IMG/VR virus record: IMGVR_UViG_3300042332_001447
Location: 31,774 to 95,773 of that record
DNA: 64,000 bases
Direction: 5' to 3' (one strand)
Origin: a virus
In this document: in pieces, positions 38,105 through 53,377 of the stretch
How positions within the stretch are numbered: position 1 is the first letter of the stretch
Layout of the letters: each line of letters opens with the position of its first letter
Position numbers and translations under genes: made by a program
The notes under the pieces: model-generated
Database searches by the model: none
The model's input: only the letters and a program-made list of their open reading frames with translations
Told to the model about the DNA's origin: nothing

Positions 38105-38124
38105 ACGATTAATTAATCGTATGC
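38101..38124. promoter_or_regulatory. 24-bp perfect palindrome over the start codon of an endonuclease
   Basis: Each half-site is GCATACGATTAA and its exact complement follows without a spacer. Its left arm (plus coordinates) contains the ATG of the 588-aa endonuclease. It sits between two divergent endonuclease genes. As RNA it would hide the start codon; as DNA it could be an operator or the recognition site of one of the nucleases. Confidence 0.6.
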
Positions 38125-38150
38125 GATTAAATTTTCAAGAAGCTTTTATA

Positions 38151-38158
38151 TATAAATA
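38151..38158 (+). promoter_or_regulatory. T4-type late promoter box TATAAATA, plus strand
   Basis: The exact octamer lies 27 bases before the ATG of the 619-aa endonuclease. A start 6-7 bases below gives a leader of about 20 bases, unlike the nearly leaderless late promoters on the other strand. An AAAGGA stretch follows, but too far from the ATG for a normal Shine-Dalgarno role. Confidence 0.5.
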
Positions 38159-38185
38159 TAAAGGACTGTATAATTAAAACTACAT

Positions 38186-40045
38186 ATGGATATAGTTTTA
38201 TGTAGCTTACAAAATAAAGAGCTTATTTTAAGTTTAAGACTTCAACACCCTAAGCATTACGTTAAGTTTATAAAAATGAAACATCAAGTATTATGGAGAG
38301 ATGCGTTATGCTATAATCAAGTGCTCTTTAAAGATACAGACATGTTCACTGCTCCTCATATATTATACAATTGGATATTTAATATACAAATAATACCGCT
38401 CTGCCCAGTTAAGCAGACACCGTTAAAATTCCACGACAGGTTATTTGAATATAGAAAATTTAGCGGCCGTGGGATATTCACTGAAGAGTTTGTTGCATCT
38501 AGAATGAAAACAAGAACAAGGTTTCCAAATTTTAAAGAAAGATTTAAAGCAAAAAGAGAAGAGTATAGCTGGGATGATGAGTATAAGGAGATCGCGAAAA
38601 AAACAATCACTACGCTTTTGCACGAGAAGAATGATAATATAGGTGGCGTATGTGCAATTATAAAAACGACAAAAAATGCAAAGCTTTATTTTTTCTTAAC
38701 AGAAACATATTTCGACGCCAATACTCTTACGGAGTGTATTTACAGGCTTGTGAATGATATTGAAAAACTTCCTTTGTGTCAATATACACAAAAACCTCTA
38801 AAGTTCATAAATTTCAATAAAGGCTATAAATCATATGACGTAACTGCTGTTATTGAGTATAAAGCAAGCAGAAAGAAAGAGAGAATTGCTTTGGGTATTT
38901 TGCTTTCTAAAGAGGAGACACGTAAGAAGTTAAAGGAAATACTAGAGAGTTGCAAGGAAGCTGGAATGAGTGCTAGAAACTTAAAACAAACCGCACTATC
39001 ACACGACCCTAGCGTTGTGTACTCAGTATACGAACATACAAAAACACTTTCAACTCTCACAACTAGATGGGCTGAAAGAGCGTATACACTTCTGCATGAT
39101 TACGATCCATCTGAAAAGAGGCAGCGGTTTATTTCCTTTGAAGATGGTTATTGTGACACATTCACAAGTGTTAATAGTTCTCGAGGTGAGAACGAACTGG
39201 CTGATTGGCTGCAAAGTGTTTGTATTAATAGAGAGATAAGCAGACATGAGAGAATCTTGAATGGTATGGAGATTGATATACTCATTGAAAATAAAATAGG
39301 GTTTGAATATCACGGGGAGTATTTTCATAATTTTGAATTCAAAGGTAAAGATTATCATAAACAAAAAGCTGATTTAGCTCTTTTAAATAACGTAAAACTT
39401 ATTCAAGTCTTTGAAACTGAGTGGTACAATAAGAAAGATATTGTGAAGTCTATTCTATTATCTAAACTCGGTATCATACAACAGAAAATATACGCAAGAG
39501 AGTGCTCTGTGCAAGTATTGGATACAGATATTAAAAACAGTTTTCTACAGGAAAATCATATACAAGGTCAAGATAGAGCTTCGGTTAATTTAGGCCTTAT
39601 GCACAAGGGTAACTTAGTTGCCTGTATGACATTCGGTAGAGGTTACATGGAAAAAGATAATTCAACCGAGTTAGTGCGATTCTGTAATAAGCTCAATACT
39701 ATCGTTGTAGGTGGCGCAAGTAAATTACTTCAGTCATACATAAAGACATACAAACCTTCAAGTATTTTTACGTATGCAGACAGAAGATACTCAAACGATA
39801 GTTCGTTTTACGAGCAACTAGGCTTTACACGAACCGGTCAGACAGTGCCAAATTATTTTTACTTTAAGCCAGCTTTACCACAGTATATGAAGCTCCAGCA
39901 CCGTTATAATTTTGCAAAACATAATCTCAGTAAAAAACTTATGTATTTTGATTCAACACAAACAGAATATCAGAATATGAAAAATAACGGCTATTTTAAA
40001 ATATACGATGCAGGTAGCTACAAATATATTTTAGAGTTAAACTAG
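38186..40045 (+). CDS. EDxHD (Vsr-like) homing endonuclease, free-standing, second copy
   Basis: A 619-residue paralogue of the divergent 588-aa endonuclease. It carries the N-terminal module twice (IPLCPVKQTPLKFHD with KFSGR; KLPLCQYTQKPLKFINF). The nuclease core reads SSRGENELADWLQSV, NGMEIDILIENKIGFEYHGEYFHNF, LIQVFETEW. The C-terminal domain is conserved (ASVNLGLMHKGNLVACMTFG, LVRFCNKLNTIVVGGASKLL, FTYADRRYSND). The zinc finger of the other copy is not seen. Its 3' end overlaps the end of the sheath gene by 9 bases. Two divergent related nucleases at one site suggest a duplication or successive invasions. Confidence 0.8.
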   Translation: MDIVLCSLQNKELILSLRLQHPKHYVKFIKMKHQVLWRDALCYNQVLFKDTDMFTAPHILYNWIFNIQIIPLCPVKQTPLKFHDRLFEYRKFSGRGIFTEEFVASRMKTRTRFPNFKERFKAKREEYSWDDEYKEIAKKTITTLLHEKNDNIGGVCAIIKTTKNAKLYFFLTETYFDANTLTECIYRLVNDIEKLPLCQYTQKPLKFINFNKGYKSYDVTAVIEYKASRKKERIALGILLSKEETRKKLKEILESCKEAGMSARNLKQTALSHDPSVVYSVYEHTKTLSTLTTRWAERAYTLLHDYDPSEKRQRFISFEDGYCDTFTSVNSSRGENELADWLQSVCINREISRHERILNGMEIDILIENKIGFEYHGEYFHNFEFKGKDYHKQKADLALLNNVKLIQVFETEWYNKKDIVKSILLSKLGIIQQKIYARECSVQVLDTDIKNSFLQENHIQGQDRASVNLGLMHKGNLVACMTFGRGYMEKDNSTELVRFCNKLNTIVVGGASKLLQSYIKTYKPSSIFTYADRRYSNDSSFYEQLGFTRTGQTVPNYFYFKPALPQYMKLQHRYNFAKHNLSKKLMYFDSTQTEYQNMKNNGYFKIYDAGSYKYILELN

Positions 40046-42340
40046 TTCTGAGAAGTTCTGACTCGTGCGAGTTGCAATAAAGTTGATCAAAATAAACTCT
40101 GCTGTACGGACAGGTTTTAAATAAATATCTACGATTAATTCGTTATTATCTATAGTAGCTGGCGTGTTATTTCTATCATCGCAGACTATTAAATAGTCGT
40201 ACACGCCTTCTGTGTTCTTAGCAAGTTCAAATATCGGTGTTATTGTATTAACGAAACGGCTGCGAGTTACAGCTGTGTTAGACTCAAAAACAAAATACTT
40301 TGCTACTCTCAATACAGCTTTTTCAAGCGTCAAGAAAAGTCTTCTAACATTAACTCTATCAAAAGCAGATGGCTTTACTTGTAAGGTCTTTTGACCGAAA
40401 ACTGCATAACCGTCTCCTGTAAAGAAGCATACAGGGTTTACTGATATTGTATATAGGTAGTCTCTTTGCTTTTGATTTGGGTTAAATCCGATGTCGTTAA
40501 TGTTGTTAACAACGCCTCTTGTGAGACCAGCAGGTGCAAACCAAGGATAAGCTACAGCGTCTGTTCTAGCATATATAGCTGCAGCAAAACCGGAAAACGG
40601 AACCCACATTAAATTATCAAGAGAGTTATCGTTAACTCTCACCCAGTTGCCGTATGTTACACTATAATTACTATTTACACCTGCATAGGATTGTTTTAAA
40701 TGAGCGTAAATATCCGTAGTAAAATTTGTTGTCTTTTTAGATAGTGTTTTAACTGCACCATTTACAAAGATATTTCTTAACGGATCTGAAATAAATACAC
40801 AATCCTTACGTACGTAAGTGGCAAAATTATTGAATATGTTGAATATAGTTCTCCAACCACCGTCTATAGTGGCTGGTATAGCTGCAGACGATTGATTTAT
40901 AGAATCATCATATAACTGAGTTACAGTGTCTTTATACGCATTAATTGTACTCAATCCTCCGTCAACTACGATATCAAGATCTATTGTATCTGAGGTTTCA
41001 ACCAAGCGAAGCACACGTTCTACTTTAGTGGGTATATCGCCTAGAAGTTTTTCAACTCCATCGTTATACGAAGGTTTATATACCCCTTTCGGGAAGAGCG
41101 ATTTTGCATCACTACTTAACCTTACATTTTTATTCGGGTTATTATTGGTTAAACTTACCCAATCTGTTCTTAAAGATATTTCAGGGTTTACTAGAACAGT
41201 AATATTAGGAGATTTAGAATTTATAACATTCTCAATAAAATACGATCTAGATTTACCGGCACCGCTTGTCGCTAATTCTTTCTTGGTACTATCCAAGGAA
41301 CCTGCATAAGATTCTGCTAAAGAAATACTGAGTGTTTGTGGTTCATTGTTACTACGGAATACTTTAAACACGTTAACAAGCAAGCTGTCTCTGTAGTAAT
41401 CATCAGCAAAATAATATGTTTGTGTTCTTTCTATGGCTTCAGATACACTGTCTTTCGGGAATGTGTTCTGAGCAGATAAAGCAAACCCTAAGCGAGCTGG
41501 AGGAATCGGGTAAAAGACATTTGCTGCTGTAAGAGAATATATATTTGATACTGAGTCAAAATTGGTCTCAGGTCCAATATTAGCATTGTCAGTAATAGAA
41601 ACGTAATAACCTTCAAAGTTTTGATTGATTACGGTTTGGGAGTCGTTTAGAATTATAATACCTGCAGACATCTGTCTTGTTACTGAAGTAAATGCTGCAG
41701 TACCGATATTGTTAACGACGAGCGCAGTTGTTTCGTATGTTAATGTAGCTGATACAGGTACACCGAAACTATCGGATGAAAAGGTAATTTGAAAGGTATC
41801 ATCAGGATCTACTCCAATGACTGAGCTAATTAAAGTAGGGTCTCCAGCCATACCTGCAGGTACTGTTACTGAAGTTAATACATACCCAATAGATGTACTA
41901 GCACCAGCGACACCGGCTGTAGCACTCCATGAAAAATCTCCTTGTTTAATAGCGTTATATTCACCTTCGTTTAGCGTAATATGAGTAGGTTGATCAATGA
42001 CAAAACCGGAAGTACTTGAAACTACAGGGTATAAGAGTGCACTATATGCTGTTGCAAATTGATCTCCTGCACCTGAACCATAAGGTAGACGAGAAACTAT
42101 AAGACTTGCAGGGGAATTTAAAATTTCTTTACAGGTATTGTGGAAATAACGCTCTGCAGGAGTTGTTGGTTTACCTAAGGTGCTCTCAAGTTCTGAAGTC
42201 GTTGTAATATTTAAAATTACATCTGTAGGTCCTTCTGCAGCAAAGCCGGTTGCAAGCACTCTTGTGCCAACTGGTGTAGCGGGGTTGACTGATAAATCTT
42301 TTTCTGTTATTTGTACGCCGGGTGAATTTATAGAACGCAT
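40037..42340 (-). CDS. 18: Tail sheath protein, gp18-like
   Basis: A 767-residue contractile sheath subunit (T4 gp18 is 659 aa). Key patterns: N-terminal RSINSPGVQITEKDLSV and the GTRVLATGFAAEGPTDV segment, and a C-terminal core with GYAVFGQKTLQVKPSAFDRVNVRRLFLTLEKAVLRVAKYFVFESNT, the hallmark of the family. The extra length is in the middle (about residues 130-260), probably a surface-exposed beta domain. It lies 58 bases downstream of the tube gene. CATAAATA, a one-base variant of the late box, lies 12 bases before the ATG. Confidence 0.95.
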   Translation of the reverse strand: MRSINSPGVQITEKDLSVNPATPVGTRVLATGFAAEGPTDVILNITTTSELESTLGKPTTPAERYFHNTCKEILNSPASLIVSRLPYGSGAGDQFATAYSALLYPVVSSTSGFVIDQPTHITLNEGEYNAIKQGDFSWSATAGVAGASTSIGYVLTSVTVPAGMAGDPTLISSVIGVDPDDTFQITFSSDSFGVPVSATLTYETTALVVNNIGTAAFTSVTRQMSAGIIILNDSQTVINQNFEGYYVSITDNANIGPETNFDSVSNIYSLTAANVFYPIPPARLGFALSAQNTFPKDSVSEAIERTQTYYFADDYYRDSLLVNVFKVFRSNNEPQTLSISLAESYAGSLDSTKKELATSGAGKSRSYFIENVINSKSPNITVLVNPEISLRTDWVSLTNNNPNKNVRLSSDAKSLFPKGVYKPSYNDGVEKLLGDIPTKVERVLRLVETSDTIDLDIVVDGGLSTINAYKDTVTQLYDDSINQSSAAIPATIDGGWRTIFNIFNNFATYVRKDCVFISDPLRNIFVNGAVKTLSKKTTNFTTDIYAHLKQSYAGVNSNYSVTYGNWVRVNDNSLDNLMWVPFSGFAAAIYARTDAVAYPWFAPAGLTRGVVNNINDIGFNPNQKQRDYLYTISVNPVCFFTGDGYAVFGQKTLQVKPSAFDRVNVRRLFLTLEKAVLRVAKYFVFESNTAVTRSRFVNTITPIFELAKNTEGVYDYLIVCDDRNNTPATIDNNELIVDIYLKPVRTAEFILINFIATRTSQNFSELV

Positions 42341-42398
42341 ATCTTATGTTATTATTTATGCGTTTTTGATAAATTTTTTATGAGTAATAAAAAAATCT

Positions 42399-42986
42399 CT
42401 ATGCGTCGGTCAGATGCTTAACGTCAAATTGACTGTACTGTAATGTGAACTCTGAGTCCATTACACTATTTTCCCTATAGTTATAGTTAATACCGCCTAA
42501 ACTAGTAATAAAACAATAATAATAAACAAACTCTACAACCGGGGCATTATACTCGTTAAGGCCAAAAACTGACACGTTTGTTTGATACTCCACCATATCA
42601 TCACTACCTTTTAATGACCCAGAGCTTCCAGCGTAATTACTCTCTCTAGGTGTATTTAAAACTGATAACCACTTCCACAAATACCAGTAATTATAAAACG
42701 TGTTATCTACAACAAATTTTACATTTAATGGCTCGTAATTAGGTCTCGTGTGACTAGATACATTATAAGTCTGACCACCAAAAGGAACTTGTATGGCTGG
42801 TACTTGTATAGATGGTACTACGGAGCCAAATACGCTAATCTGTAGCGGATCAATATTTAATTTTTTATTATCAAAAATTTTATGTCTTATAAGTTCAGGT
42901 ACATTTAAAACCAATAAAAATTTATCAGTACTCGGTCTATTGAGTACTGATTGCTCTGTTGGGTTCGGACAAATACTTTCAGACAT
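42399..42986 (-). CDS. 19: Tail tube protein, gp19-like
   Basis: A 195-residue protein next to the sheath gene. The N-terminal DKFLLVLNVPELIRHK, VVPSIQVPAIQVPFGGQTYNVSS, PLNVKFVVDNTFYNYWYLWKWL and the C-terminal VVEFVYYYCFITSLGGINYNYR, DSEFTLQYSQFDV fit the tube-fold pattern of T4 gp19 (163 aa). I use ATG at 42986; a TTG two codons upstream is also in frame. Two further tube-like proteins are encoded at 34891-36282. Confidence 0.7.
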   Translation of the reverse strand: MSESICPNPTEQSVLNRPSTDKFLLVLNVPELIRHKIFDNKKLNIDPLQISVFGSVVPSIQVPAIQVPFGGQTYNVSSHTRPNYEPLNVKFVVDNTFYNYWYLWKWLSVLNTPRESNYAGSSGSLKGSDDMVEYQTNVSVFGLNEYNAPVVEFVYYYCFITSLGGINYNYRENSVMDSEFTLQYSQFDVKHLTDA

Positions 42987-42997
42987 TATCAATATAC

Positions 42998-44539
42998 TTA
43001 TTGCAAAGGCACGTAACCTAAAGATAATAACTCTTCCATATCTTGATCTGCTTGTACTTCAATTTTAGATAACTCTTCCGGTGTTATTAACCTTTCGTGC
43101 TTACTTTCAGTAAATGTGTTATTAGGATCTGCAATATGGTTCTCAACTAAGTGACCGACTATATACAAATTCGGGTCTTTAGTATCATATCCATTAGATA
43201 AAATTTTTAAAGGTTTTTCCTGAGTATCATGCTCAGCAATTTCAAAATACTGTTGACATATTTCTGACTCTAATATAAACAACGCCCATACAGTTGCCAT
43301 TACTTTATCGTCAGTGTACGTGTCATTTTTCTTGCGATAAGTACCGTTTGGATAACGGATAAACGTTTCAAGTTCTTTAATAGTGTCCATGTCGTTTATG
43401 CTCACTACCTGTAATGTATTCATCCAGTATCGCATATTAGCAACACTTGCAAATCGCATATTATTATGACTCAAGACTCCTAAGTGTCTTGTGTTTGACA
43501 TAGAACCTGTGCTTGATAGCTTTGAACAACTTACTATTTTTTCATACATATGCTTATGAAACATAGTATCTATAACCTGCCCTCCACAGTTATTTCTCTC
43601 TATAAGCAAAGGTGGTTTGCCCCATTGATTGCAAAGAAAGTTTAATTTATTTGCAAAATGATACGGTTCAACGACATTAGTGCTATATACAGCCACTTGC
43701 TTAATATCTGTTAAATCGGTTACATCTAGTACCTGTGCCACTGAAAATGCTCTACCTATGCCTTCTCCTACATCGACTCCTATAACATAGAGACTTTGCG
43801 GTGACGGTTCTTCAAATACTTGATAACAACCTTCTTCACCAGTCCATATAGGTTTTTTATGCTGTTCTTTAAAACGCTCTATAACCGAAGCGCCTATTGC
43901 AGAGTTATTAATATCTGTAAACTGGTTGCCAAATTCTTGTTGAAAACTTTCTTCAGAACCAAGAGCACTTATCATCTGTTTTTTCCACTTATCGGTTCTA
44001 TCTGGTACATCCCACCAATCAATGCGCTCTGCAGTCCACCCGTTTGCGTTCTTTTCAGCCTCGGAATAAATCTCATAAAATTTATTACCGACTCCATTCG
44101 GGGTACTTACCATAAAAATTTTTGTTTTTTTACCTGAAGAAACAATAGGTATAACAGACTTCCAAAATTCTTCAAGAAGATGTGTATTATGTTGTAAGAT
44201 GTTATTTGCAAAATATGTATGCGTGTCTTTTACGTTCTTAATATCATAAACAAAGTCTTTTTTAAATTTGTTAATGCTTATTACTTTTGAAAATCCGCTT
44301 TTTGTTGAAATGTTACGATTTAGACTATTTTTACAAAAAATTCTTTCACCGTTTTCTCCTATAAAAGCGTGAGTACTTGTACACTTAACAGATTCTCCGT
44401 TCTCTGTTACCACAGTGTATAATTGTTTCTTTTTTAGCTTAATAATCCCATCGAAAGATTTCCATCCTTGCGGGGTCTGTATCTCCCAATCCCCTGTGTT
44501 TAGAGCAGTTTGTAAAATATCGTCATATGGTAGTTTCAT
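42998..44539 (-). CDS. 17: Large terminase, C-terminal gene: split intein C-part plus ATPase end and nuclease
   Basis: A 513-residue product. Residues 1-118 are the C-part of a naturally split intein: block B-like VKCTSTHAFIG, then VYDIKNVKDTHTYFANNILQHN, with Thr119 as the +1 residue. Residues 119-513 are the TerL extein: coupling motif IFMVSTPNG, then the RNase-H-like nuclease with VIGVDVGEGIGR, LLIERNNCGGQVIDT and TDDKVMATVWAL. The nuclease cuts concatemeric DNA at headful packaging. Trans-splicing with the upstream product would yield a 601-aa TerL (T4 gp17 is 610 aa). Confidence 0.9.
   Translation of the reverse strand: MKLPYDDILQTALNTGDWEIQTPQGWKSFDGIIKLKKKQLYTVVTENGESVKCTSTHAFIGENGERIFCKNSLNRNISTKSGFSKVISINKFKKDFVYDIKNVKDTHTYFANNILQHNTHLLEEFWKSVIPIVSSGKKTKIFMVSTPNGVGNKFYEIYSEAEKNANGWTAERIDWWDVPDRTDKWKKQMISALGSEESFQQEFGNQFTDINNSAIGASVIERFKEQHKKPIWTGEEGCYQVFEEPSPQSLYVIGVDVGEGIGRAFSVAQVLDVTDLTDIKQVAVYSTNVVEPYHFANKLNFLCNQWGKPPLLIERNNCGGQVIDTMFHKHMYEKIVSCSKLSSTGSMSNTRHLGVLSHNNMRFASVANMRYWMNTLQVVSINDMDTIKELETFIRYPNGTYRKKNDTYTDDKVMATVWALFILESEICQQYFEIAEHDTQEKPLKILSNGYDTKDPNLYIVGHLVENHIADPNNTFTESKHERLITPEELSKIEVQADQDMEELLSLGYVPLQ
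44186..44539 (-). other. Split intein, C-terminal part (TerL)
   Basis: 118 residues from the ATG to Asn118, including the block B histidine and blocks F and G ending in QHN. The partner N-part has only 35 residues. A very short N-part with block B in the C-part is the atypical split known from the AceL-TerL-type inteins of environmental phage terminases. Confidence 0.85.
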
Positions 44540-44648
44540 TATAAAAATTAAAATCTTTTTCGGTTATAAGTTTGTAGTTGTTGTTATTATTACATTCCTC
44601 AGTGAAAAATTTTATTATTTCTACTCTTGCTTTAACTCTATCAAACAT
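44523..44648 (-). CDS. Small frame between the TerL halves (41 aa)
   Basis: The ATG at 44648 follows the stop of the TerL N-gene by one base (TAA-T-ATG), and the frame ends 17 bases inside the intein C-part gene, in another frame. The product begins MFDRVKARVEIIKFFTEECN, which looks like a helix. It may couple translation of the second half or be the stub of a lost endonuclease gene. It could also be chance. Confidence 0.3.
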   Translation of the reverse strand: MFDRVKARVEIIKFFTEECNNNNNYKLITEKDFNFYNETTI

Positions 44649-44649
44649 A

Positions 44650-45798
44650 TTACACTTCCCTCGTATTAAGATCGACAAACAAATGTTCTAAACTAATTGT
44701 TTTTATTTCTTGAGTGTATTTATTTTTTATAACTACTTCGGAATCTCCAGCCAAGCAATCAATAAACGCTGCTTCGTCTATGCAATTATGAATCAAGATG
44801 TTATTAGCAAAAAAATAACCAGTATCTGTATTAACAACATCATAAACCCGTATTGGAGGGTTATGCTTCTGTTCTGAAACACTAATTACACTATCCTTAC
44901 CAGATGTTGTTAGTAGTACATCGCTTAATTTAACGTTCTTTGCTTCGACCCATTCATCTAATTCGCATACATAAATCTTGTGCTCTGGTGTTACGGAGAT
45001 AGTATTACCGTTTGTAGTTTCGATATTAATAAAGGTATCTGATTCCCCAGTGCATTTTATATCTTGAAAATTAATAAACCCGTTTCGAGATTTTATTTCG
45101 TAGAGTTGTTTATCTTTTATTTGCAAGCAGCTCTCTTCTATAGTCGGTTCAAAAATTTCGTTAGTAATTTTATTTCTAAGCATTAGCTTAGCATCTCCAC
45201 GTACACACAAAATACTTGCCGTATCTCCACGGGCAGCTGTCGATGTTGTTGTGCTAATACCTATACTGGAATCATTATCAAATGTTACACCTGTTTTTCC
45301 GTATTCTTTAACCCCTGGTTTTAAAAAATTAGGTAAAAGCTCGTATGCAAGTCTGATCTTTTTAAAAATTTTAATAGCTGTATTTTCATTATTAGCTACA
45401 ATAAGAGCTCTTTGATCAGCTGAAAAGCATGTGCTCCATAACGTATATACAGTTAGAATTGTTGACTTACCGCATTGTCTAGAAGCTAACAATACCACAA
45501 ACCGGTTATTTGCAAGTGAACGTAATGCCTTTTTTTGTTTAGGGTAAAGCTTAATTGTTTCTTTACCTCTATCAATATTAGTTATAGTAAAATATTTTTC
45601 AGCAAAATAAACTATATCCTCTGTACATCTTTTAAGCTCCTTAACCATCGCGGGTGTCCAGGTAAACTGAGCATCTTCCTTTGGTATTTTTTTATCTCCT
45701 CTATAGTATTGTGCATCATCTACAGGCTCTAATATAATACTATCTGCAGAATGCTCTACAGGTGCGCTTTGAATAGCGTTTTTACGCGGTCTCCCCAT
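44650..45798 (-). CDS. 17: Large terminase, N-terminal gene: ATPase part with one mini-intein and a split intein N-part
   Basis: A 382-residue product. Extein residues 1-197 carry the TerL ATPase front: KLYPKQKKALRSLANNR and Walker A LASRQCGKST (104-113). Residues 198-338 are a contiguous mini-intein (Cys198 to His337-Asn338, +1 Cys339). Residues 339-347 (CIDEAAFID) are the Walker B extein. Residues 348-382 are the N-part of the split intein (CLAGDSEVVIKNK). The ATPase drives DNA into the head. Both splicing reactions are needed for a complete Walker B region and nuclease. It lies 2 bases after the 122-aa gene. Confidence 0.9.
   Translation of the reverse strand: MGRPRKNAIQSAPVEHSADSIILEPVDDAQYYRGDKKIPKEDAQFTWTPAMVKELKRCTEDIVYFAEKYFTITNIDRGKETIKLYPKQKKALRSLANNRFVVLLASRQCGKSTILTVYTLWSTCFSADQRALIVANNENTAIKIFKKIRLAYELLPNFLKPGVKEYGKTGVTFDNDSSIGISTTTSTAARGDTASILCVRGDAKLMLRNKITNEIFEPTIEESCLQIKDKQLYEIKSRNGFINFQDIKCTGESDTFINIETTNGNTISVTPEHKIYVCELDEWVEAKNVKLSDVLLTTSGKDSVISVSEQKHNPPIRVYDVVNTDTGYFFANNILIHNCIDEAAFIDCLAGDSEVVIKNKYTQEIKTISLEHLFVDLNTREV
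44653..44757 (-). other. Split intein, N-terminal part (TerL), 35 residues
   Basis: Starts with Cys348 right after CIDEAAFID and ends at the TAA stop. Block A (CLAGDSEV) is present; block B is missing and lies in the partner encoded at 44186-44539. Confidence 0.85.
44785..45207 (-). other. Contiguous mini-intein in TerL (141 residues)
   Basis: Block A is CVRGDAKLML, block B is SVTPEHKIYV, blocks F/G are VYDVVNTDTGYFFANNILIHN, followed by Cys. No endonuclease domain is present. It is inserted directly before the Walker B aspartate segment. Confidence 0.9.
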
Positions 45799-45800
45799 AC

Positions 45801-46169
45801 CTACTCTCCACCATTCATTATTGAGAGAAACGTTGTTCTTAAATGTTCTATTAAAGAATCTCTAGCTGCTGGAGTAGATGCATGTGAAATGCAGATTTTT
45901 TCACCGTTAATATCGTACCCTAGAATCATAAACGTCTGCAAGTATTCTGCAACGATAGTATCTAAGTGTTGTAGATCGTGTATCTTACTCTGTTTACCTC
46001 TCGATGCTTCATAGAAACGGGTTAGTGCTTGCTCTATGACATCATCTATTTGCTTTTGTACGAAAGGAGCAGTAGTTACCGGTTTTACTGGGTTTACTGA
46101 TTTAACGGGTCCGTTAGTTTTACGTACACGGGGTTTATTTTTTTTCGGTGTTTCACCTTCTGTTGGCAT
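45801..46169 (-). CDS. Protein of unknown function upstream of terL (122 aa)
   Basis: A 122-residue protein. Residues 1-35 are basic and disordered (KKNKPRVRKTNGPVKSVNPVK). The rest is helical (QIDDVIEQALTRFYEASRG, HLDTIVAEYLQTFMILGYD). Its place next to terL would suit a small terminase, but the gp16 pattern is found in the protein at 24344-24865 instead, so I leave this unnamed. CATAAATA lies 13 bases upstream of the ATG. Confidence 0.55.
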   Translation of the reverse strand: MPTEGETPKKNKPRVRKTNGPVKSVNPVKPVTTAPFVQKQIDDVIEQALTRFYEASRGKQSKIHDLQHLDTIVAEYLQTFMILGYDINGEKICISHASTPAARDSLIEHLRTTFLSIMNGGE

Positions 46170-46211
46170 AACTTATGTCAAATATTTATGTAACTTATTC
46201 ACTTAAACAAG

Positions 46212-46556
46212 TTATTTGTTTTTTATGTTTAATTTTTTTTCAGAAGGATAACTCTCGGATTTATTATTAATACCATAACGAACAAGGTGTTCTACTAACA
46301 CTTCAAAAGAATCTGTCTTTAATTTTAGTCGCCCGGGTATAAATTGCCCGCCATCGTATAACTCTAAATACGTTTCTTCAATAAGAGGGTCTTCTACATA
46401 ACATGTACAAAAAACAGACGCATAACCAGGATCAATAATTATTGACCATACCCGAGGGTCTATGTCATTATAATCAGTAAAAAGTTTATAAGCATAGTAA
46501 CCACTATCTCTTAATCGTTTGAGTGTGTATCCTAGAGTTGTGAGTTTATTCGCCAT
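46212..46556 (-). CDS. Conserved-looking protein of unknown function (114 aa)
   Basis: A 114-residue alpha/beta protein (LGYTLKRLRDSGYYAYKLFTDY, then VWSIIIDPGYASVFCTCYV) with a basic C-terminal tail. It follows the sliding clamp gene by 13 bases, so it may belong to replication or late-transcription control. I do not recognise it. Confidence 0.5.
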   Translation of the reverse strand: MANKLTTLGYTLKRLRDSGYYAYKLFTDYNDIDPRVWSIIIDPGYASVFCTCYVEDPLIEETYLELYDGGQFIPGRLKLKTDSFEVLVEHLVRYGINNKSESYPSEKKLNIKNK

Positions 46557-46569
46557 AATTTTTATTAAT

Positions 46570-47310
46570 CTACTTTACAAGACCTGAAATAATAAATTTC
46601 ACATCTATATATTCATCAACATACTCAATACACGCGATTTTAAGAGTAGCATTAATTTTAACATTAAATGCATGTGTTTTAAGACCTGCTAGCAATCTCA
46701 CACTTTCTAACCCCAATATTATTGGAACTGTAATATCATTACCCGTGTAAGTATCTGCAATCTGGTAACACACATTATTTACATTGTGTCTTTCAAAATC
46801 ATTAAGCTCGGCGTATACTTTTGTATCTTTAGTGGATATGTAAATTTTATCAGATTCTGTCGCTATAGAACTACCCTTTAAAAGTTCTTGTAACTTGTTC
46901 ACGGTTAGCACAAACTCACTATCATAATTAAACTTTTTAATTTTTTCTGGGCTAATAGGGCAGCGAGGCATTACTCCATCTTCAAGTAGAAAATAATTAA
47001 ATTTGAATATATCGTCTTTATATCGTAAATGATTACCATGTATTTCTATTTCAATATCATCTTTTTCTATACAATCTAACAAACGTATAAATTTCTTAAT
47101 ATCTGGTATATTAATATTACTCTTTATATCTGTGCACTCTGCTGCTTTATAGCTAGCGTATAAAACCGCACTACCACCTGCTTGAGATGTGCATATAGTA
47201 TAAAAAATATCTTCTTGTTTTATTATAGATACATTATCTGCTACCTTGCTTATAGGTAGCAGATAATGAGATAAAAAACTATTTTTCTTAAATTTAATTA
47301 TTGAATTCAC
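46570..47310 (-). CDS. 45: Sliding clamp, gp45-like
   Basis: A 246-residue protein with the gp45/PCNA layout (T4 gp45 is 228 aa): two similar beta-rich halves. The first reads FLSHYLLPISKVADNVSIIKQEDIFYTICTSQAG, then IPDIKKFIRLLDCI. The second ends CIEYVDEYIDVKFIISGLVK. The trimeric ring tethers the polymerase and, in T4, couples replication to late transcription. The polymerase ends in a clamp-binding tail (DLFDLFGM), which supports the pair. The start is GTG at 47310, overlapping the previous stop. Confidence 0.75.
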   Translation of the reverse strand: MNSIIKFKKNSFLSHYLLPISKVADNVSIIKQEDIFYTICTSQAGGSAVLYASYKAAECTDIKSNINIPDIKKFIRLLDCIEKDDIEIEIHGNHLRYKDDIFKFNYFLLEDGVMPRCPISPEKIKKFNYDSEFVLTVNKLQELLKGSSIATESDKIYISTKDTKVYAELNDFERHNVNNVCYQIADTYTGNDITVPIILGLESVRLLAGLKTHAFNVKINATLKIACIEYVDEYIDVKFIISGLVK

Positions 47311-47732
47311 GTTTTTTGTAATACAGCAACAATAGTATTAAGTGTTTCGTTAATATCAACTAAATTTGTAGATAACTTTTCTAGTACGTCTATTACGCTT
47401 TTATCTAATACACTGCTACTATGTGAAGTGTTATTATATTTTTCATTAAGAGGGAATTGAGGTAATTGAGGCATACTTGCTACAGGCGGCGGTAGAGGAT
47501 ATGCCATTGCAGCCTCTCTATTTAACTGATCAATTATAGCTTGCTGATTTACTACACTACTCTCTGTTTGTATTTGCTGTGCTTGCTGTATGGATGGTAT
47601 AAACGAAATAGGATTTAGTCTATTTGCTGGACCTAGACTTGAAGTCTGAGTCGTATACTGGTCTATAGTATGTAGCTCATTTGCTGCAGATTTAGCTAGA
47701 AAAGCTATTGCTAGTTCATCATCATTAATCAT
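47307..47732 (-). CDS. Protein of unknown function (141 aa)
   Basis: A 141-residue, Gln/Pro-rich, probably disordered protein with a helical C-terminus (LDKSVIDVLEKLSTNLVDINETLNTIVAVLQ), likely a coiled coil. Its end overlaps the GTG start of the clamp gene by four bases. By position it might be a clamp- or transcription-associated factor, but no motif shows it. Confidence 0.5.
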   Translation of the reverse strand: MINDDELAIAFLAKSAANELHTIDQYTTQTSSLGPANRLNPISFIPSIQQAQQIQTESSVVNQQAIIDQLNREAAMAYPLPPPVASMPQLPQFPLNEKYNNTSHSSSVLDKSVIDVLEKLSTNLVDINETLNTIVAVLQKT

Positions 47733-47741
47733 AAGTATATA

Positions 47742-48797
47742 TTATCTTATTAGAGATTTATAAACATCAAGCGTTACTCCAGGTTTGAAACCATCTTCTA
47801 CTCCCTTTACTATCACTGACACTGCATCATGAGAGTGTAGAGATTCTAGATGCGAACACACTACCTTGAAGTCTTTAATGCGTTGATCGTTGTTAAGTTT
47901 TTCGTAGAGCAGTCTTGCCGCGTCTTCGACAAATTTGAGATTAGAACCGTTAAGCTCTGCAAACGCTTGCTCGTCCTCTCTCTTAACGATTACTTGAGTC
48001 TCTGTTTTAAGAGCACTCAAACAAATTTCTTGAAGATCTTCGATCCAAAGCATATCTTCAAATAAAACAGATACTCTTGCAACTGATCTCTGGCTATGTG
48101 AAACTACTGCTCTATTTCTATATTTTGATGCATGCTCTCCTAACTCATAGCTGCACGGGCACGCACTACTATACACAAAATCAAAATGTATATATTTTTT
48201 AAAGTTGTTATCTCTCAACCAATCTCCTTCAAGCGTTACTGAGTAGTACTGATACCCTGAATTACCTGAACGCAGTGACTTCTGAACAATGGGGTAAGAA
48301 ATGTTCAGCATAATTCTCGCATCAAAAACATCGAGACGATCTTTATAAGCTTGTAATACGTCTTTAATTTTATCGATGCAAAAAATATGATCTTTAAACT
48401 CGTAAAAAGATCTCATAATACGAGACATATTAATACCTTTCTTGTGAGATTCCAAAGAAACAGTGCCTGTAATGCTTGTTTCTAAATCTAAAAACGAACC
48501 AGTTCTCGTACGATATCTGAGTGGTAGCTTAAAGTTGTTAATACCGACTTGTTGTATGGGTACCGGTGCTCCGCAGATTAGCGAGCTCGGACCATTCTGT
48601 AAATCTGGTAACGACTGCAAATACTTTTCAGTTACTTCTAATTTATCATCATATATTCTAATAGGGGGTATATATGTATCCGCATAAACTGAGGTAGTGC
48701 ATTGCTTGGCTAGCTTATCTTTTTCAGTGTTGTTTGCAAATTCATGTTCATCTTCCAACCAATCGTAGGTGTTTTTATTTGGCATGTTCATACTCAT
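47742..48797 (-). CDS. folE2: GTP cyclohydrolase IB (FolE2)
   Basis: A 351-residue enzyme that converts GTP to 7,8-dihydroneopterin triphosphate, the first step towards folate and 7-deazaguanines (preQ0/preQ1). Family motifs are clear: GTVSLESHKKGINMSR (residues 111-126), SACPCS (211-216), HSQRS (234-238), and ESLHSHDA (318-325) with likely metal ligands. Length fits the long FolE2 forms. It sits 6 bases after gp32. With queF and the dpdA-like gene on the same strand, it most likely feeds a DNA-modification pathway. QueD, QueE and QueC are not in this window. Confidence 0.9.
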   Translation of the reverse strand: MSMNMPNKNTYDWLEDEHEFANNTEKDKLAKQCTTSVYADTYIPPIRIYDDKLEVTEKYLQSLPDLQNGPSSLICGAPVPIQQVGINNFKLPLRYRTRTGSFLDLETSITGTVSLESHKKGINMSRIMRSFYEFKDHIFCIDKIKDVLQAYKDRLDVFDARIMLNISYPIVQKSLRSGNSGYQYYSVTLEGDWLRDNNFKKYIHFDFVYSSACPCSYELGEHASKYRNRAVVSHSQRSVARVSVLFEDMLWIEDLQEICLSALKTETQVIVKREDEQAFAELNGSNLKFVEDAARLLYEKLNNDQRIKDFKVVCSHLESLHSHDAVSVIVKGVEDGFKPGVTLDVYKSLIR

Positions 48798-48803
48798 ATA
48801 AAA

Positions 48804-49727
48804 TTACAGACCTGCAAGCAATTCCTTAAGTTTTGCATCTGTATCGTCTTCTGTGACCGGGTCTTTTGCACTCTCTACTCCTTCGAAAATCATATCAAGA
48901 TCTGCGTTCTTAGCTGGTGTCTCAATATCTAGCGTAGGTTTAGCTAGAGCAGCTGTAACATTAGCGGTAGAAATCTCTTCATTAATCTCGTCTTCAGTTT
49001 CTGTGTCTTGGATACAGAAGAAATGTTGATCAATCATACGCTGCAATTCTGCACGTGTCTTCGGCTTAAACATCTTAGTGAGATCAAATACTCCATTATG
49101 AATAGCTTCAATTTTTGCTTCACTGACACCTTCGAGCGCTGTTGGTGAGATAAATTTTGAAGATGCATATGTAACAAAATTACGAGCATTAGCACTACCT
49201 GCTCTTGATTCGCATTTAATACGCAAGCTACAGCCATTAGCTACATCGAAAATTTTCTCTGCTCCAAATTCATCTGCATCATCTCCGTCAATAGCGCTAG
49301 TAATGATCTTAGCAAGTTCTTTACCATAACGAATAATCTTAACCTTACCTTCGTTATCTGAATTAGATGGATCAGAAATAACATACGCATTAACCATCCA
49401 AGCTTCTTTCCGTGTAATAGGTTTCATACGTTCTTTCTCTTCCGTTGTACCGGTGCGGTACGTCTTAATGACGTAATCATCAATAGGGCATCCTTCATTA
49501 TAGGTAGCTGGGCAAAGAGCTGTAACAAACTGCCCTGTGGCAATACTATTCCAGCTATGATGCCAGTAATGATAGATAGACTGTCTAGGTTCAACAATAT
49601 TAGGTACAAGACGAACCACATAGGTTTTTCCTGGTTCGAATTTCATTATTTCTTTATACGGGCTATCATCTTTTTTTGTTGTAAGAGACGCTTTAATTTC
49701 GCTGAATAGGTTTTTTGTTAATGTCAT
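48804..49727 (-). CDS. 32: Single-stranded DNA-binding protein gp32-like
   Basis: A 307-residue protein (T4 gp32 is 301 aa). The OB-fold core includes YVVRLVPNIVEPRQSIYHYWHHSWNS, then LCPATYNEGCPID, whose His and three Cys fit the zinc site of gp32. The acidic C-terminal tail (TEDDTDAKLKELLAGL) recruits partner proteins. It coats ssDNA in replication and recombination. The gene order 33-59-32 of T4 seems kept upstream of it. Confidence 0.9.
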   Translation of the reverse strand: MTLTKNLFSEIKASLTTKKDDSPYKEIMKFEPGKTYVVRLVPNIVEPRQSIYHYWHHSWNSIATGQFVTALCPATYNEGCPIDDYVIKTYRTGTTEEKERMKPITRKEAWMVNAYVISDPSNSDNEGKVKIIRYGKELAKIITSAIDGDDADEFGAEKIFDVANGCSLRIKCESRAGSANARNFVTYASSKFISPTALEGVSEAKIEAIHNGVFDLTKMFKPKTRAELQRMIDQHFFCIQDTETEDEINEEISTANVTAALAKPTLDIETPAKNADLDMIFEGVESAKDPVTEDDTDAKLKELLAGL

Positions 49728-49734
49728 ACGTTTA

Positions 49735-50406
49735 TTATTGTATATTGTTATATGTTTTATGCAAGGTTTTATCTACAAAAAATTTTATTTTATTATATGC
49801 TACTGTAAGAAAAGGCTTTAATGCTCTAGAATTGTTATATCTATTTTTATAGTCTAAAAAATTAGAACCAAAATCTCCTAAAAATAAATTTTTCTCGTCT
49901 TGAGGTAGATTAGTGATTATATCATGAATTCCAGGAAACTCCATAAGCACGTAACAGTTTATTTTAGATCTTTTAATATGATATATCCATTCTGGCTCTA
50001 GGCTTGATGTACGAAAATAAGAGTACTCGTCAAGTTGAATTTTATGTTCTAAACAAAATTTAGCTATATAATGTAACGATTCTTCGACTTCTCTCTTACA
50101 ATTATCTGGCTGCTTGTGAGATATTTCTTGTTTGAAGATAGAGTAACTTTTCACAGCTCTCGGGGATGCAAAATATGATAAATCAAAATACTGTACATCT
50201 GTATATAGCTTATACGGAGCTATAAAATATGTGTTTAAATCTATGTCTGGGTATTTTGTAAAAAATATCGATAGTTTTTTTACAAAACGGTAATTTGTGT
50301 CACCCTCAAAACCTGTGAAGTCGTTTCTCTTCTTGAATGGTTTACCTCTAAGAGAGCGTGAAACTGCAAGGTGAGTGTTATAAATTCTTTTTTCTAGTTC
50401 GGTCAT
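49735..50406 (-). CDS. Possible helicase loader (gp59-like by position)
   Basis: A 223-residue, mostly helical basic protein (T4 gp59 is 217 aa). A segment NYRFVKKLSIFFTKYPDIDLNTYF resembles the N-terminal region of gp59 loosely, and the gene lies directly upstream of gp32 and downstream of gp41, where a loader is expected. Sequence evidence alone is weak. Its ATG lies 29 bases inside the end of the 113-aa gene. Confidence 0.4.
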   Translation of the reverse strand: MTELEKRIYNTHLAVSRSLRGKPFKKRNDFTGFEGDTNYRFVKKLSIFFTKYPDIDLNTYFIAPYKLYTDVQYFDLSYFASPRAVKSYSIFKQEISHKQPDNCKREVEESLHYIAKFCLEHKIQLDEYSYFRTSSLEPEWIYHIKRSKINCYVLMEFPGIHDIITNLPQDEKNLFLGDFGSNFLDYKNRYNNSRALKPFLTVAYNKIKFFVDKTLHKTYNNIQ

Positions 50407-50719
50407 TCTTTTTTTTACTAAACGATGAATTAAAAAGTTTTTTAGTATTTTTTGATTTTATTAAATTCGGATAAAGTTGCAACAGTCCTAATAAAGCTTC
50501 ATGCACACTTTGAGAGCCCGTAATGAAAATAAAAAGTTCTCTCATTTCTAAATCTTGTAAAACTGATGTAAATAACCCTGATGCGTTAATTTTTTTGTTA
50601 TTTATGATTGAAAGGAAAGAACCAAAAATTAAAACTCCTTCTATATATTCTTTTGTACAAATTTGCTCCAAAGGATTACCTTGAAACATATATTTTTGAA
50701 GAGTTCTCTCGTTTAACAT
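50378..50719 (-). CDS. Small protein, possible late transcription co-activator (gp33 position)
   Basis: A 113-residue helical protein (T4 gp33 is 112 aa), with IEGVLIFGSFLSIINN and MRELFIFITGSQSVHEALLGLLQL helices and a very basic C-terminus (SSFSKKKNDRTRKKNL). In T4, gp33 lies next to gp59 and links RNA polymerase to the clamp for late transcription. Only size and gene order support that here. Confidence 0.35.
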   Translation of the reverse strand: MLNERTLQKYMFQGNPLEQICTKEYIEGVLIFGSFLSIINNKKINASGLFTSVLQDLEMRELFIFITGSQSVHEALLGLLQLYPNLIKSKNTKKLFNSSFSKKKNDRTRKKNL

Positions 50720-50761
50720 ATAAGATGTACTTACATGTTAAACGTAACTATTGCAACTCTT

Positions 50762-51283
50762 CTATTTATCAGCTAGAGATTCGAGTACCGATTCCGCAGA
50801 ATTAACTGCAGAGTCAGGTGAATCGCTCGCAAAATAATCAGGATTCGTTTCCTTTAGTGTTAGTGTTTCATATTTTACCTTAAAAGCGCAATGCCCGAAA
50901 TTAGCTCCAAACCGATTTTTCTGCATACCGAGATTAATAATACCTAACTCTTTCTCTTGCTCTTCCTGCCACAAAGAGCATATTACGTCGCATGTAGCCG
51001 CAAGTCCAATTGAATTTTTTGTAAGTATATCATTACAAAAGAATAGACTATCACCTGTAACAGAAATATCTATAGTCTCCATTTCTCCGACAGGTTCTAT
51101 ACTAACGATCTCGTCATTATAATCAATAGACTTATCGGTTATAGCATTTTTCTCTTCTTGTTCTTCAAGAATTTTCGCTGCGACTTCGATGTACTTTTCT
51201 TTGTCTGTTTCTCTATCAGCTAATCCTAGGTTTTGCAGAGCTTCAAACCTATTATTTAAAAAGTGAATAATTTTCTCGTTCAT
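50762..51283 (-). CDS. 41: Replicative helicase gp41, C-terminal gene: split intein C-part plus helicase end
   Basis: A 173-residue product. Residues 1-90 are the C-part of a split intein: an unusual helical extension of about 55 residues, then EIVSIEPVGEMETIDISVTGDSLFFCNDILTKN, with Ser91 at +1. The residue before Asn90 is Lys where nearly all inteins have His. Residues 91-173 are the last part of the DnaB-type helicase (SIGLAATCDVICSLWQEEQE, then GMQKNRFG). Spliced gp41 would be 449 aa (T4: 475). The start is 1 base from the stop of the N-gene. Confidence 0.9.
   Translation of the reverse strand: MNEKIIHFLNNRFEALQNLGLADRETDKEKYIEVAAKILEEQEEKNAITDKSIDYNDEIVSIEPVGEMETIDISVTGDSLFFCNDILTKNSIGLAATCDVICSLWQEEQEKELGIINLGMQKNRFGANFGHCAFKVKYETLTLKETNPDYFASDSPDSAVNSAESVLESLADK
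51014..51283 (-). other. Split intein, C-terminal part (gp41)
   Basis: 90 residues. The last 36 align in pattern with the gp41-8 intein C-part (SIEYVGVEETIDINVTNDRLFFANGILTHN in memory; only short phrases compared). The N-terminal 50 residues are extra. The penultimate His is replaced by Lys. Confidence 0.85.
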
Positions 51284-51284
51284 T

Positions 51285-52655
51285 TTAAGAATTCCTTGTG
51301 TTTAGTTTAGCACCAATCTTAAGACCGTCTTCTACAGATAATCTTCCATCAGATGTCGGGAATTTGTGTTTGGAGCTAACTATAATTTCTTTTCCAGACT
51401 TCAATTTAAGTTTATAGCATAATTTAATGTTTCTGTGATGAACTTGCGTAACAGTCTTGTAACCGTCATGTGAAGTGATTTGATCTCCGAATTCAACATC
51501 TCCAATTTTCTTTTTTGTACCGTCTCGAAGAGTTATCATTTGATTAACCTCAATACACTCTGAAATACCCTCCATACCCGGATTAGCAGTATTAAAGGAG
51601 CTCCTCGTTAATTGGCTTGCAGTTACAAAGGGAATGTTGTACTTAAAGGACAACGCTCTAAGTTGCTCCGCTACCTCTTTAACGGACTCGTATGAGTTTA
51701 AGTTTTTAGATGAGGGTTTTAAAAGATTAATATAATCAATAACTACAACCTCTGGTTTAAAACCTCTATGGCCTAATTTTGTTATATAAGCATCAATGTG
51801 TCTAACAGTTATAGTTTTTGGCGGATACTCTTTAATTACAAGTTTACTCTCAAGCTGTCTTTCAACATGCTCTACTTGCTGTTTAAGTTCGTCGGTATAT
51901 ACGCTCAATTGATTATGTGGTATCTGTGTAACCTGTGCACTTATTCTTTTGGCGTACATAAACTCAGACATTTCAAGCGAGATGAGTAAGACGTTGTGGT
52001 TTGCGAGTACCATATTAGCTGCAATATTACCTAAGAAAATACTCTTACCTACGTTAACTTGCCCGACAAGACAAGTTAACGTTTTTGGAAATAACCCGCC
52101 TTCGAGTCTTTCATCTAAAAACTTCCAGCCTGTTGGAAGTGGGTTATAAACAGTCGTTAGCTCTTTTATGTGTCTTTCAATATCTTCGAAATAAAAATAA
52201 CCTAAATCTTCAACTAACGAGATATTGTATACTTTTTCAAATTGAGATAGAGTTTCTTGTAAATCTATTTTACCCGATGTGTATTTTTCTGCAGCTTCAT
52301 TAATAGCTTTTACTAAGCTTCTTTCTTTTAAGAACCTCTCTGTATTTGCAATTAATTCATCTTTATTAAAATTAGTATCAAGTTGCTTTAATTTTAAACC
52401 GACATCTGTAAAAGCTTTTTTTTCATTTTCAGTTGTTAGTCTTGACTTAATTTCTGTTAACGTGGGCGGTGCACCACGCTCTAAGAAAAACGAAATAATA
52501 GAATTAAAAACAATACCTATATTTTTGTCATTAAAATAACTAGGATCGAGATGCTCAATTACGCACGCTAAATATTCTTGATTTAAAAGCGAATTAAGAA
52601 GTATGACATTTTCATAATAATCGAGATCTAATTTACTCGGTTCAGTGTTTGTCAT
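51285..52655 (-). CDS. 41: Replicative helicase gp41, N-terminal gene: helicase core plus split intein N-part
   Basis: A 456-residue product. Residues 1-366 are the DnaB-like helicase: N-terminal helical domain, PLPTGWKFLDERLEGGLFP, Walker A GQVNVGKS (198-205), SLEMSEFMYAKRIS, Walker B VVVIDYINLL (303-312), and TASQLTRSS. Residues 367-456 are the split intein N-part (CIEVNQMITLRDGTKKK; block B VSSKHKFPTSDG). gp41 unwinds DNA 5'-3' ahead of the fork. The insertion is in the GISE/SIGLAATCDV motif, the site used by the known gp41 split inteins. Confidence 0.92.
   Translation of the reverse strand: MTNTEPSKLDLDYYENVILLNSLLNQEYLACVIEHLDPSYFNDKNIGIVFNSIISFFLERGAPPTLTEIKSRLTTENEKKAFTDVGLKLKQLDTNFNKDELIANTERFLKERSLVKAINEAAEKYTSGKIDLQETLSQFEKVYNISLVEDLGYFYFEDIERHIKELTTVYNPLPTGWKFLDERLEGGLFPKTLTCLVGQVNVGKSIFLGNIAANMVLANHNVLLISLEMSEFMYAKRISAQVTQIPHNQLSVYTDELKQQVEHVERQLESKLVIKEYPPKTITVRHIDAYITKLGHRGFKPEVVVIDYINLLKPSSKNLNSYESVKEVAEQLRALSFKYNIPFVTASQLTRSSFNTANPGMEGISECIEVNQMITLRDGTKKKIGDVEFGDQITSHDGYKTVTQVHHRNIKLCYKLKLKSGKEIIVSSKHKFPTSDGRLSVEDGLKIGAKLNTRNS
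51288..51557 (-). other. Split intein, N-terminal part (gp41), 90 residues
   Basis: Runs from Cys367 to the stop codon. Block A (CIEVNQMITL) and block B (IIVSSKHKFPT) are present: the canonical split position, as in gp41-1, gp41-8 and NrdJ-1 inteins. Confidence 0.88.
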
Positions 52656-52660
52656 GTGTT

Positions 52661-53377
52661 TCAGATCTCTTCTACTTCTTCTTCAATCTCCTCGACTTTG
52701 GTAGTATTTTCGCCGTAACAAAGCTTTTCTTGTAATGTTTTTTCAAGCTCTGGCATTATCTTCTCCCAGAACGCTGGATCTTTTTCTAGATCTTTTCTAT
52801 ACCCTAGGCTCTCACCTTTATACATTACAGTTCTACCTGGTTTTTCTATAACACTAAACGCTTCTGCAATTTCAAATAACCCGGCATGCTTATCTAGACC
52901 AGATTTAAAATTAAGATATAACTCTGTCTTGAGATAAGAAGGAACGAACCGGTTTTTAACCGTAAGAGCTCCTAGAGTTACACCTGAAACGTTATGTGCA
53001 ATAGCGATAGATTGTTCGTCTGGATTGTCACTAGCTTTTTCGTTCTTAGTGCTAAGCTGCACTAAGACTGAAGCAAGATATATTGGTCCTTTTCCACCGC
53101 TTTGTGTTTTAACTAAAGTAGGAAACATCTCCATACCCTCGTAAATATGGTTACTAAAGAGAATAGGTACCTTAGCCTTGGCTGCCTTGTAAGTAAGTGT
53201 ACGCATCATTGATTTACAGTTATGTGAAACAATACTGCTATCCGTAATACAGAACGTACTATCATCTTCTACACTAATATCAATTAGATCTTCATCAATA
53301 TCAATTTCACTGATATCGTTTATGGTAAGGTACTCGTAATTATCTTCCGCAAAAATAAATTCGTTGTTTGGATTCAT
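52661..53377 (-). CDS. uvsX: Recombinase UvsX, C-terminal gene: split intein C-part plus UvsX end
   Basis: A 238-residue product. Residues 1-53 are the split intein C-part (DEDLIDISVEDDSTFCITDSSIVSHN), and Cys54 is +1. Residues 54-238 are the second half of the RecA-like recombinase (CKSMMRTLTYKAAKAKVPILFSNHIYE, GGKGPIYLASVLVQL, FVPSYLKTELYLNF) with an acidic tail (KVEEIEEEVEEI), as in T4 UvsX. Spliced UvsX would be 371 aa (T4: 391). It has its own promoter-like sequence, because a terminator separates it from the N-gene. Confidence 0.9.
   Translation of the reverse strand: MNPNNEFIFAEDNYEYLTINDISEIDIDEDLIDISVEDDSTFCITDSSIVSHNCKSMMRTLTYKAAKAKVPILFSNHIYEGMEMFPTLVKTQSGGKGPIYLASVLVQLSTKNEKASDNPDEQSIAIAHNVSGVTLGALTVKNRFVPSYLKTELYLNFKSGLDKHAGLFEIAEAFSVIEKPGRTVMYKGESLGYRKDLEKDPAFWEKIMPELEKTLQEKLCYGENTTKVEEIEEEVEEI
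53219..53377 (-). other. Split intein, C-terminal part (UvsX), 53 residues
   Basis: Blocks F and G (LIDISVEDDSTFCITDSSIVSHN) end directly before Cys54. The first 25 residues are an acidic, Tyr/Asn-rich extension that could pair with the basic N-part. Confidence 0.87.

Follow-up and report, generated by a model that had tools for sequence, protein, structure and literature searches.

How is the large terminase subunit (TerL) of a phage made when two inteins stand nine residues apart in the catalytic motif of its ATPase? The question is raised by a locus in a 64,000-nucleotide stretch (hereafter the window) that runs from base 31774 to base 95773 of the IMG/VR virus record IMGVR_UViG_3300042332_001447, which is 95,773 bases long. 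On the minus strand of the window TerL is coded by two genes, an N gene (45798-44650, 382 aa) and a C gene (44539-42998, 513 aa), and an earlier note on this DNA had described two different inteins flanking the Walker B motif. The reading that we favor, with a probability of roughly 0.87, is that TerL would be made from the two polypeptides by two protein-splicing events, the inteins having arrived separately and the endonuclease gene of the split one having shrunk to a stub.

The exteins, when joined, form a colinear TerL of 601 aa (197 + 9 + 395). The N-extein (residues 1-197; 45208..45798, minus strand) contains the Walker A motif ASRQCGKS, ends with TASIL and matches the PHROG terminase large subunit (1.4e-49), and the C-extein (42998..44185, minus strand; 395 aa plus the stop) begins with THLLEEFW and matches PHROG terminase (1.2e-22). 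An uninterrupted allele with neither intein is found in the IMG/VR contig L001, whose TerL is 96% identical at the amino acid level to the joined exteins of the window. The DNA of L001 is colinear with the window (92% identity upstream, 91% downstream), and the window flanks joined across both inteins align with it over 177 nt at 93% without a gap. Because so near a relative lacking the inserts aligns gap-free, both inteins are precise insertions with exact boundaries. Positions 44653-45207 correspond exactly to a mini-intein, a short extein and the N-terminal half (IntN) of a split intein, and translation together with the L001 alignment places the end of the 141-aa mini-intein just before CIDEAAFID and the start of the split intein just after it, as the earlier note had it. 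The protein belongs to the T4-type large terminases (gp17 family), with an N-terminal ATPase carrying Walker A and B, a C-terminal nuclease domain and tail sheath and tail tube genes as neighbors, i.e. the T4-like gene order; a TerL query matched 2516 phage records, T4-like phages and cyanophages being prominent among them.

The insert at site a (44785..45207, minus strand) is a contiguous class 1 mini-intein of 141 aa (CVRGD...ILIHN) without an endonuclease domain, as assessed by translation, profiles and AlphaFold2 modeling. Its catalytic set is intact (C1, H76, D123, H140, N141 and a +1 Cys, the full class 1 complement), the +1 nucleophile being the Cys of CIDEAAFID. It scores 37.3 bits against Pfam Intein_splicing (curated cut-off 35.8) and 31.9 against NCBIfam intein_Nterm (curated cut-off 24.5), and its model (predicted local distance difference test, pLDDT, 94) has the intein (HINT) fold, with VidaL as the top structure match (E 2e-8, TM 0.8). 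The insertion point, SIL/CIDE, lies two residues ahead of the Walker B Asp; as Walker B (SILCI-DE) comprises both a hydrophobic strand and the Asp-Glu after it, the mini-intein interrupts the motif itself rather than bordering it. The following nine residues, CIDEAAFID (44758..44784, minus strand), which are contiguous with the flanking TerL in L001 and L004 and which we call a micro-extein, comprise the catalytic half of Walker B and the residues next to it. Their equation with the whole motif in the earlier note thus applies to the C-I-D-E that they contain and not to the strand SIL, which remains upstream of the mini-intein.

The insert at site b is divided between the two genes. Its IntN (CLAGDSEV...NTREV; 44653..44757, minus strand), a member of the site-b clade described below, is followed directly by the stop of the N gene (44652-44650), and its C-terminal half (IntC; MKLPYDD...ILQHN; 44186..44539, minus strand) has an ATG of its own. 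Cys1, the block-B His, the block-F Asp and the terminal His-Asn are all intact, and the +1 nucleophile is the Thr of THLLEEFW. An IntN of 35 aa (below about 40), an IntC of 118 aa (within 100-120) and their location in separate genes make this an atypically split intein. The AlphaFold2 model of IntC (pLDDT 93) has the intein fold (TM 0.75 to VidaL), and a profile search matched IntC to Cat (1e-15) and VidaL (1e-8); gp41-1 matches as well, so that the tie to the AceL-TerL/VidaL/Cat type is not exclusive. The best solved-structure matches for the models of the mini-intein and of IntC are the VidaL, gp41-1, Cat and DnaB inteins. The net charges of IntN (-2) and IntC (+5) should attract each other; those of the two parts of the mini-intein are -1 and -5.

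A 41-codon open reading frame (ORF), MFDRVKARVEIIKFFTEECNNNNNYKLITEKDFNFYNETTI (44523..44648, minus strand), lies between the gene halves, beginning 2 nt past the stop of the N gene and overlapping the start of the C gene by 16 nt. At the same place site-b relatives (L064, L031, L034, L037, L038 and L007) carry, between IntN and IntC, an endonuclease gene of 387-405 aa (Pfam TnsA-like N, E 2.8e-10; PHROG endonuclease). Aligned with the endonuclease of L064 (398 aa), the first 24 residues of the short ORF correspond to residues 1-24 and the later part of the ORF to residues 381-398, neither alignment being equaled in any of 10000 shuffles. With a profile of the endonuclease C-terminus, the short ORF ranks first among 1,561 six-frame segments from the window. 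A first alignment had suggested that it is wholly endonuclease C-terminus, an assignment ruled out by the presence of both termini. The match of its ends to both termini indicates that about 350 codons were lost from the interior without a shift of frame, leaving a stub of a homing endonuclease gene in which residues ~1-22 are joined directly to the final ~18. In the intact loci the endonuclease start lies 5-15 nt after the stop of the N gene in five of six (the start taken for L007 lies farther away), and its stop lies 0-22 nt beyond the start of the C gene in all six. The stub, which retains a start and a stop, may persist because ribosomes leaving the N gene would reach the C gene through it, a coupling that we infer.

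The proposed pathway would begin with excision of the mini-intein in cis from the N gene product, joining TASIL to CIDEAAFID; the 35-aa IntN would then pair with the 118-aa IntC, and trans-splicing would join AAFID to THLLEEF to yield the 601-aa TerL. As cis splicing requires neither a partner nor an encounter, it probably occurs before trans-splicing or independently of it, albeit the order is not forced. Walker B is interrupted until both splices are done, and the ATPase should therefore be inactive up to that point. As for the origin of the locus, two mobile elements would have entered, separately, two closely spaced targets in a conserved ATPase motif, and the halves of the split intein would once have enclosed a TnsA-like endonuclease gene, still present in relatives but here since shrunk in frame.

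To place the double insertion in context, the 80 closest TerL contigs were surveyed with a query that avoids the intein sites (n = 79, one contig being truncated). A pre-Walker B intein is present in 10 of the 79 (in three of these ten the contig ends before site b becomes visible), a site-b intein in 5 and both in 2. Pattern searches added further doubles with 11 residues between the inteins, in L022, L023, L024, L034, L027, L037 and L038. The contigs of L022 and L023 also figure as L100 and L116, and the sequences of L024 and L034, though on different contigs, are nearly identical. The cultured Campylobacter phages CP21 and IBB_35 also have two inteins around Walker B, eight residues apart and enclosing CNIIVVDE, plus a third at Walker A; unlike those of the window, the two are located at position -6 relative to the Walker B Asp and directly after DE. 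Double occupancy around Walker B by predicted inteins is thus uncommon but recurrent, with seven contigs in IMG/VR and two Campylobacter phages showing it and 8-11 residues lying between the two inteins. The rarity claimed in the earlier note holds in the unselected sample; the arrangement nevertheless recurs in other T4-like phages, sometimes in a more extreme form.

L034, L037, L038 and L027 each have two split inteins around Walker B, so that their TerL would come from three or more polypeptides. The middle gene, of 153-160 aa, consists of an IntC (114 aa), 11 extein residues of Walker B (CLVIDEMAFIE or CLVIDECAFVE) and the IntN of the second intein (28-35 aa); these genes are located at L037:9884-10366, L034:3666-4133 (minus strand), L038:702-1163 and L027:4063-4530 (minus strand). 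The middle ORF of L022 carries an endonuclease too. The TerL of L038 has, in addition to a Walker A intein, an extra split intein at a nuclease-domain site (three split inteins in all), implying at least four polypeptides. The window is the two-polypeptide form of this theme, with nine residues. Pieces of terL in the Campylobacter phage records L120 (HM246721.1) and L012 (HE815464.1) are unannotated in the database or called an intron in the paper, and the reading frame of IBB_35 changes near L120:5063, perhaps owing to a sequencing error. The IBB_35 study explained the terL interruption by an intein together with an endonuclease-bearing intron and did not describe a micro-extein (PMC3322345); we read that supposed intron as a split intein.

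In intein-free relatives the residues at both +1 positions belong to the extein. The +1 position of site b holds Thr in the window, as it does at every complete junction read, the exception being L038 (Ser). Among 67 intein-free TerLs (66 from the unselected survey and one contig of a GTDB genome) the same position is occupied by Pro (40), Gln (9), Ser (6), Ala (5), Asn (3), Asp (2), Val (1) or Glu (1), and never by Thr. Its absence from the empty alleles and near-universal presence at occupied sites suggest that the Thr codon probably came in with the intein; a comparable Ser/Pro change at +1 has been reported for the MCM-d site (PMC10643990). At site a the +1 Cys is already there in 26 of the 67 empty alleles. 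A comparison of pre-Walker B positions (L012, L018, L021, L022, L023, L034, L037, L038 and the window) places the first extein residue, relative to the Walker B Asp, at -2 in the window, -3 in L021, -4 in L022, L023, L034, L037 and L038 and -6 in CP21 and IBB_35. Pre-Walker B inteins accordingly lack a common conserved insertion point: they occupy varied residues (-1, -2, -3, -4 and -6) within a single short strand, in each case ahead of a Cys. None of the intein-free alleles seen combines a Cys at -2 with one at -4. The position of the window mini-intein is so far unique among the putative inteins compared.

Several other histories of the locus have to be weighed against two separately acquired, splicing inteins. 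The full-length alignment of the two inserts (28% identity, E 5e-13) and their common ending FANNIL.HN might suggest that they arose from one intein by tandem duplication or are parts of one. Yet other inteins at TerL sites are similarly related, and both inserts possess a complete catalytic set (Cys1, block-B His, block-F Asp and the terminal His-Asn). A tree was built of 35 phage inteins (the CP21 IntN entered the input one residue late; counted from its first Cys, the distance from RG to DE is eight, as usual). The 13 inteins of site b, i.e. after AFI[DE] and before Thr-His, form one clade in it (95/96) comprising split and contiguous members, the latter L026 and L033. The Walker A inteins form a clade of their own (97/95), and the window mini-intein falls outside both. 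Approximately unbiased (AU) tests reject the mini-intein as sister of the window split intein (p 0.038) and its placement inside the site-b clade (p 0.029). This phylogenetic comparison, which the earlier note had proposed, bears out its view of two distinct inteins; on the strength of the clade and the AU tests we rejected a duplication, which is very unlikely, and the two predicted inteins are of different lineages and reflect separate invasions. Equally hard to sustain is the idea that the gap between the halves is removed as an RNA intron, as might be supposed from the spliced intron in terL of ICP1 (PMC10448857) and from the partial intron interpretation of the IBB_35 terL (PMC3322345). 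An Rfam search of 38000-53000 gave no intron match, IntN and IntC are translatable with the catalytic residues and fold of an intein, and they share a clade with the contiguous same-site inteins L026 and L033; we rejected this candidate on the Rfam result, and its probability is close to negligible.

The earlier note had also raised the order of the two splicing reactions and their cross-talk, a reasonable question. The first 26 residues of the mini-intein and IntN are similar (about 10/26 identical). Were IntC to capture the N-terminal part of the mini-intein, a homologous IntN-like segment, as the normal outcome, CIDEAAFID would be skipped, and, the skipped segment being 27 nt, the frame would be kept. 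The resulting TerL of 592 aa would lack the acid pair of Walker B and could act as an inhibitor or be mere waste. Such a product would be a dead ATPase, the inteins are of different lineages, and the C-terminal part of the mini-intein, being covalently attached, should win the competition, which leaves cross-talk a slim chance. An endonuclease gene reduced to a stub and three inteins in one record, suggestive of a heavy load, could alternatively mean that one intein is dead and the gene on its way out, with TerL supplied by another copy or phage. The catalytic residues are all intact, however, the exteins are 96% identical to the TerL of L001, and no other TerL was found in the record, making decay of this kind improbable.

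Returning to two splicing inteins of separate origin, some points weigh against this reading and its parts. The 95.8-kb record in which no second TerL copy was found may be incomplete, and another copy may lie beyond it. The case for the mini-intein draws on just 141 aa with about 21-34% identity to relatives; a single-sequence query of viral contigs found no close relative of it, and a pattern search with the right spacing for other inteins at its exact position returned none, its one match, L036, being unrelated. The inteins are short and divergent, and the tree is weakly resolved except for the site-b, Walker A and -4 clades. The set of site-b junctions was partly chosen for Thr, as one pattern search required it; those of L064, L072/L073 and L100/L116 also came from the survey, which was unselected for Thr.

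Split TerL inteins, endonucleases between intein halves and double inteins in one gene are already known. AceL-TerL, which lies in a terminase gene as well and is of the atypically split kind, presumably occupies a +1 Cys site, probably the nuclease-domain site as in L038. AceL-TerL, VidaL and Cat share with the window the short IntN and the long IntC of 100-120 aa; in contrast to AceL-TerL at its presumed site, the window split intein follows AAFID, uses a +1 Thr and has a second intein nine residues upstream. Genes interrupted by split inteins with a homing endonuclease between the halves were reportedly described as 'fractured genes' by Dassa et al. in 2009. The site-b relatives are alike in having an endonuclease ORF (TnsA-like by Pfam) between the halves, whereas in the window the 41-codon stub with its in-frame deletion is all that is left. 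The two DnaB inteins of Mycobacterium smegmatis are not known to be split or to have sites nine residues apart. Like the window, they represent two inteins of differing properties in one ATPase (PMC6195587). The AceL TerL intein is mentioned in PMC7891396. Haloarchaeal MCM likewise has two inteins in neighboring sites of one ATPase gene, and its serine-for-proline at +1 parallels the Thr at site b; those inteins, however, are contiguous and carry endonucleases, whereas the window has a split intein next to a contiguous one, both lacking an intact endonuclease and standing nine residues apart (PMC10643990). In a literature search that left out most subscription papers we found no description of an 8-11-residue extein between two inteins in a catalytic motif, of genes contributing a micro-extein only, or of an endonuclease stub.

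Apart from tail sheath, tail tube and terminase genes, the window of this T4-like phage contains a DnaB/gp41-type helicase that is also intein-split, coded by genes at 52655-51285 and 51283-50762 (minus strand). Its IntN is 90 aa long (51557-51288), and its IntC (51283-51014) has an N-terminal extension of roughly 50 residues and ends with LTKN, the penultimate His being replaced by Lys. A 619-aa ORF (38186-40045, plus strand) matches PHROG homing endonuclease families (3e-88) and is convergent with, and overlaps, the end of the tail sheath gene; its homologs occur near terL or tail sheath in the intein carriers L022, L030, L032, L013 and L020, and also in L078.

Overall, we consider it quite probable that T4-like phages assemble TerL via natural micro-exteins, a protein counterpart of microexons, in which 8-11 Walker B residues lie between mutually orthogonal inteins and, in some phages, come from a separate 153-160-aa product whose lasting contribution is 11 residues. 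If both inteins splice, an essential motor tolerates two splicing reactions around 8-11 residues, a very small natural extein size, and order or orthogonality is demanded between two inteins of one molecule. As these must not mispair, such loci are natural experiments in intein orthogonality, and the relatives with micro-extein genes would provide split-intein pairs, ready to use and orthogonal by nature, for ligating three pieces. The window locus itself illustrates with unusual clarity how a homing cycle can end, with the endonuclease cut in frame to a stub and the gene-to-gene junctions kept.
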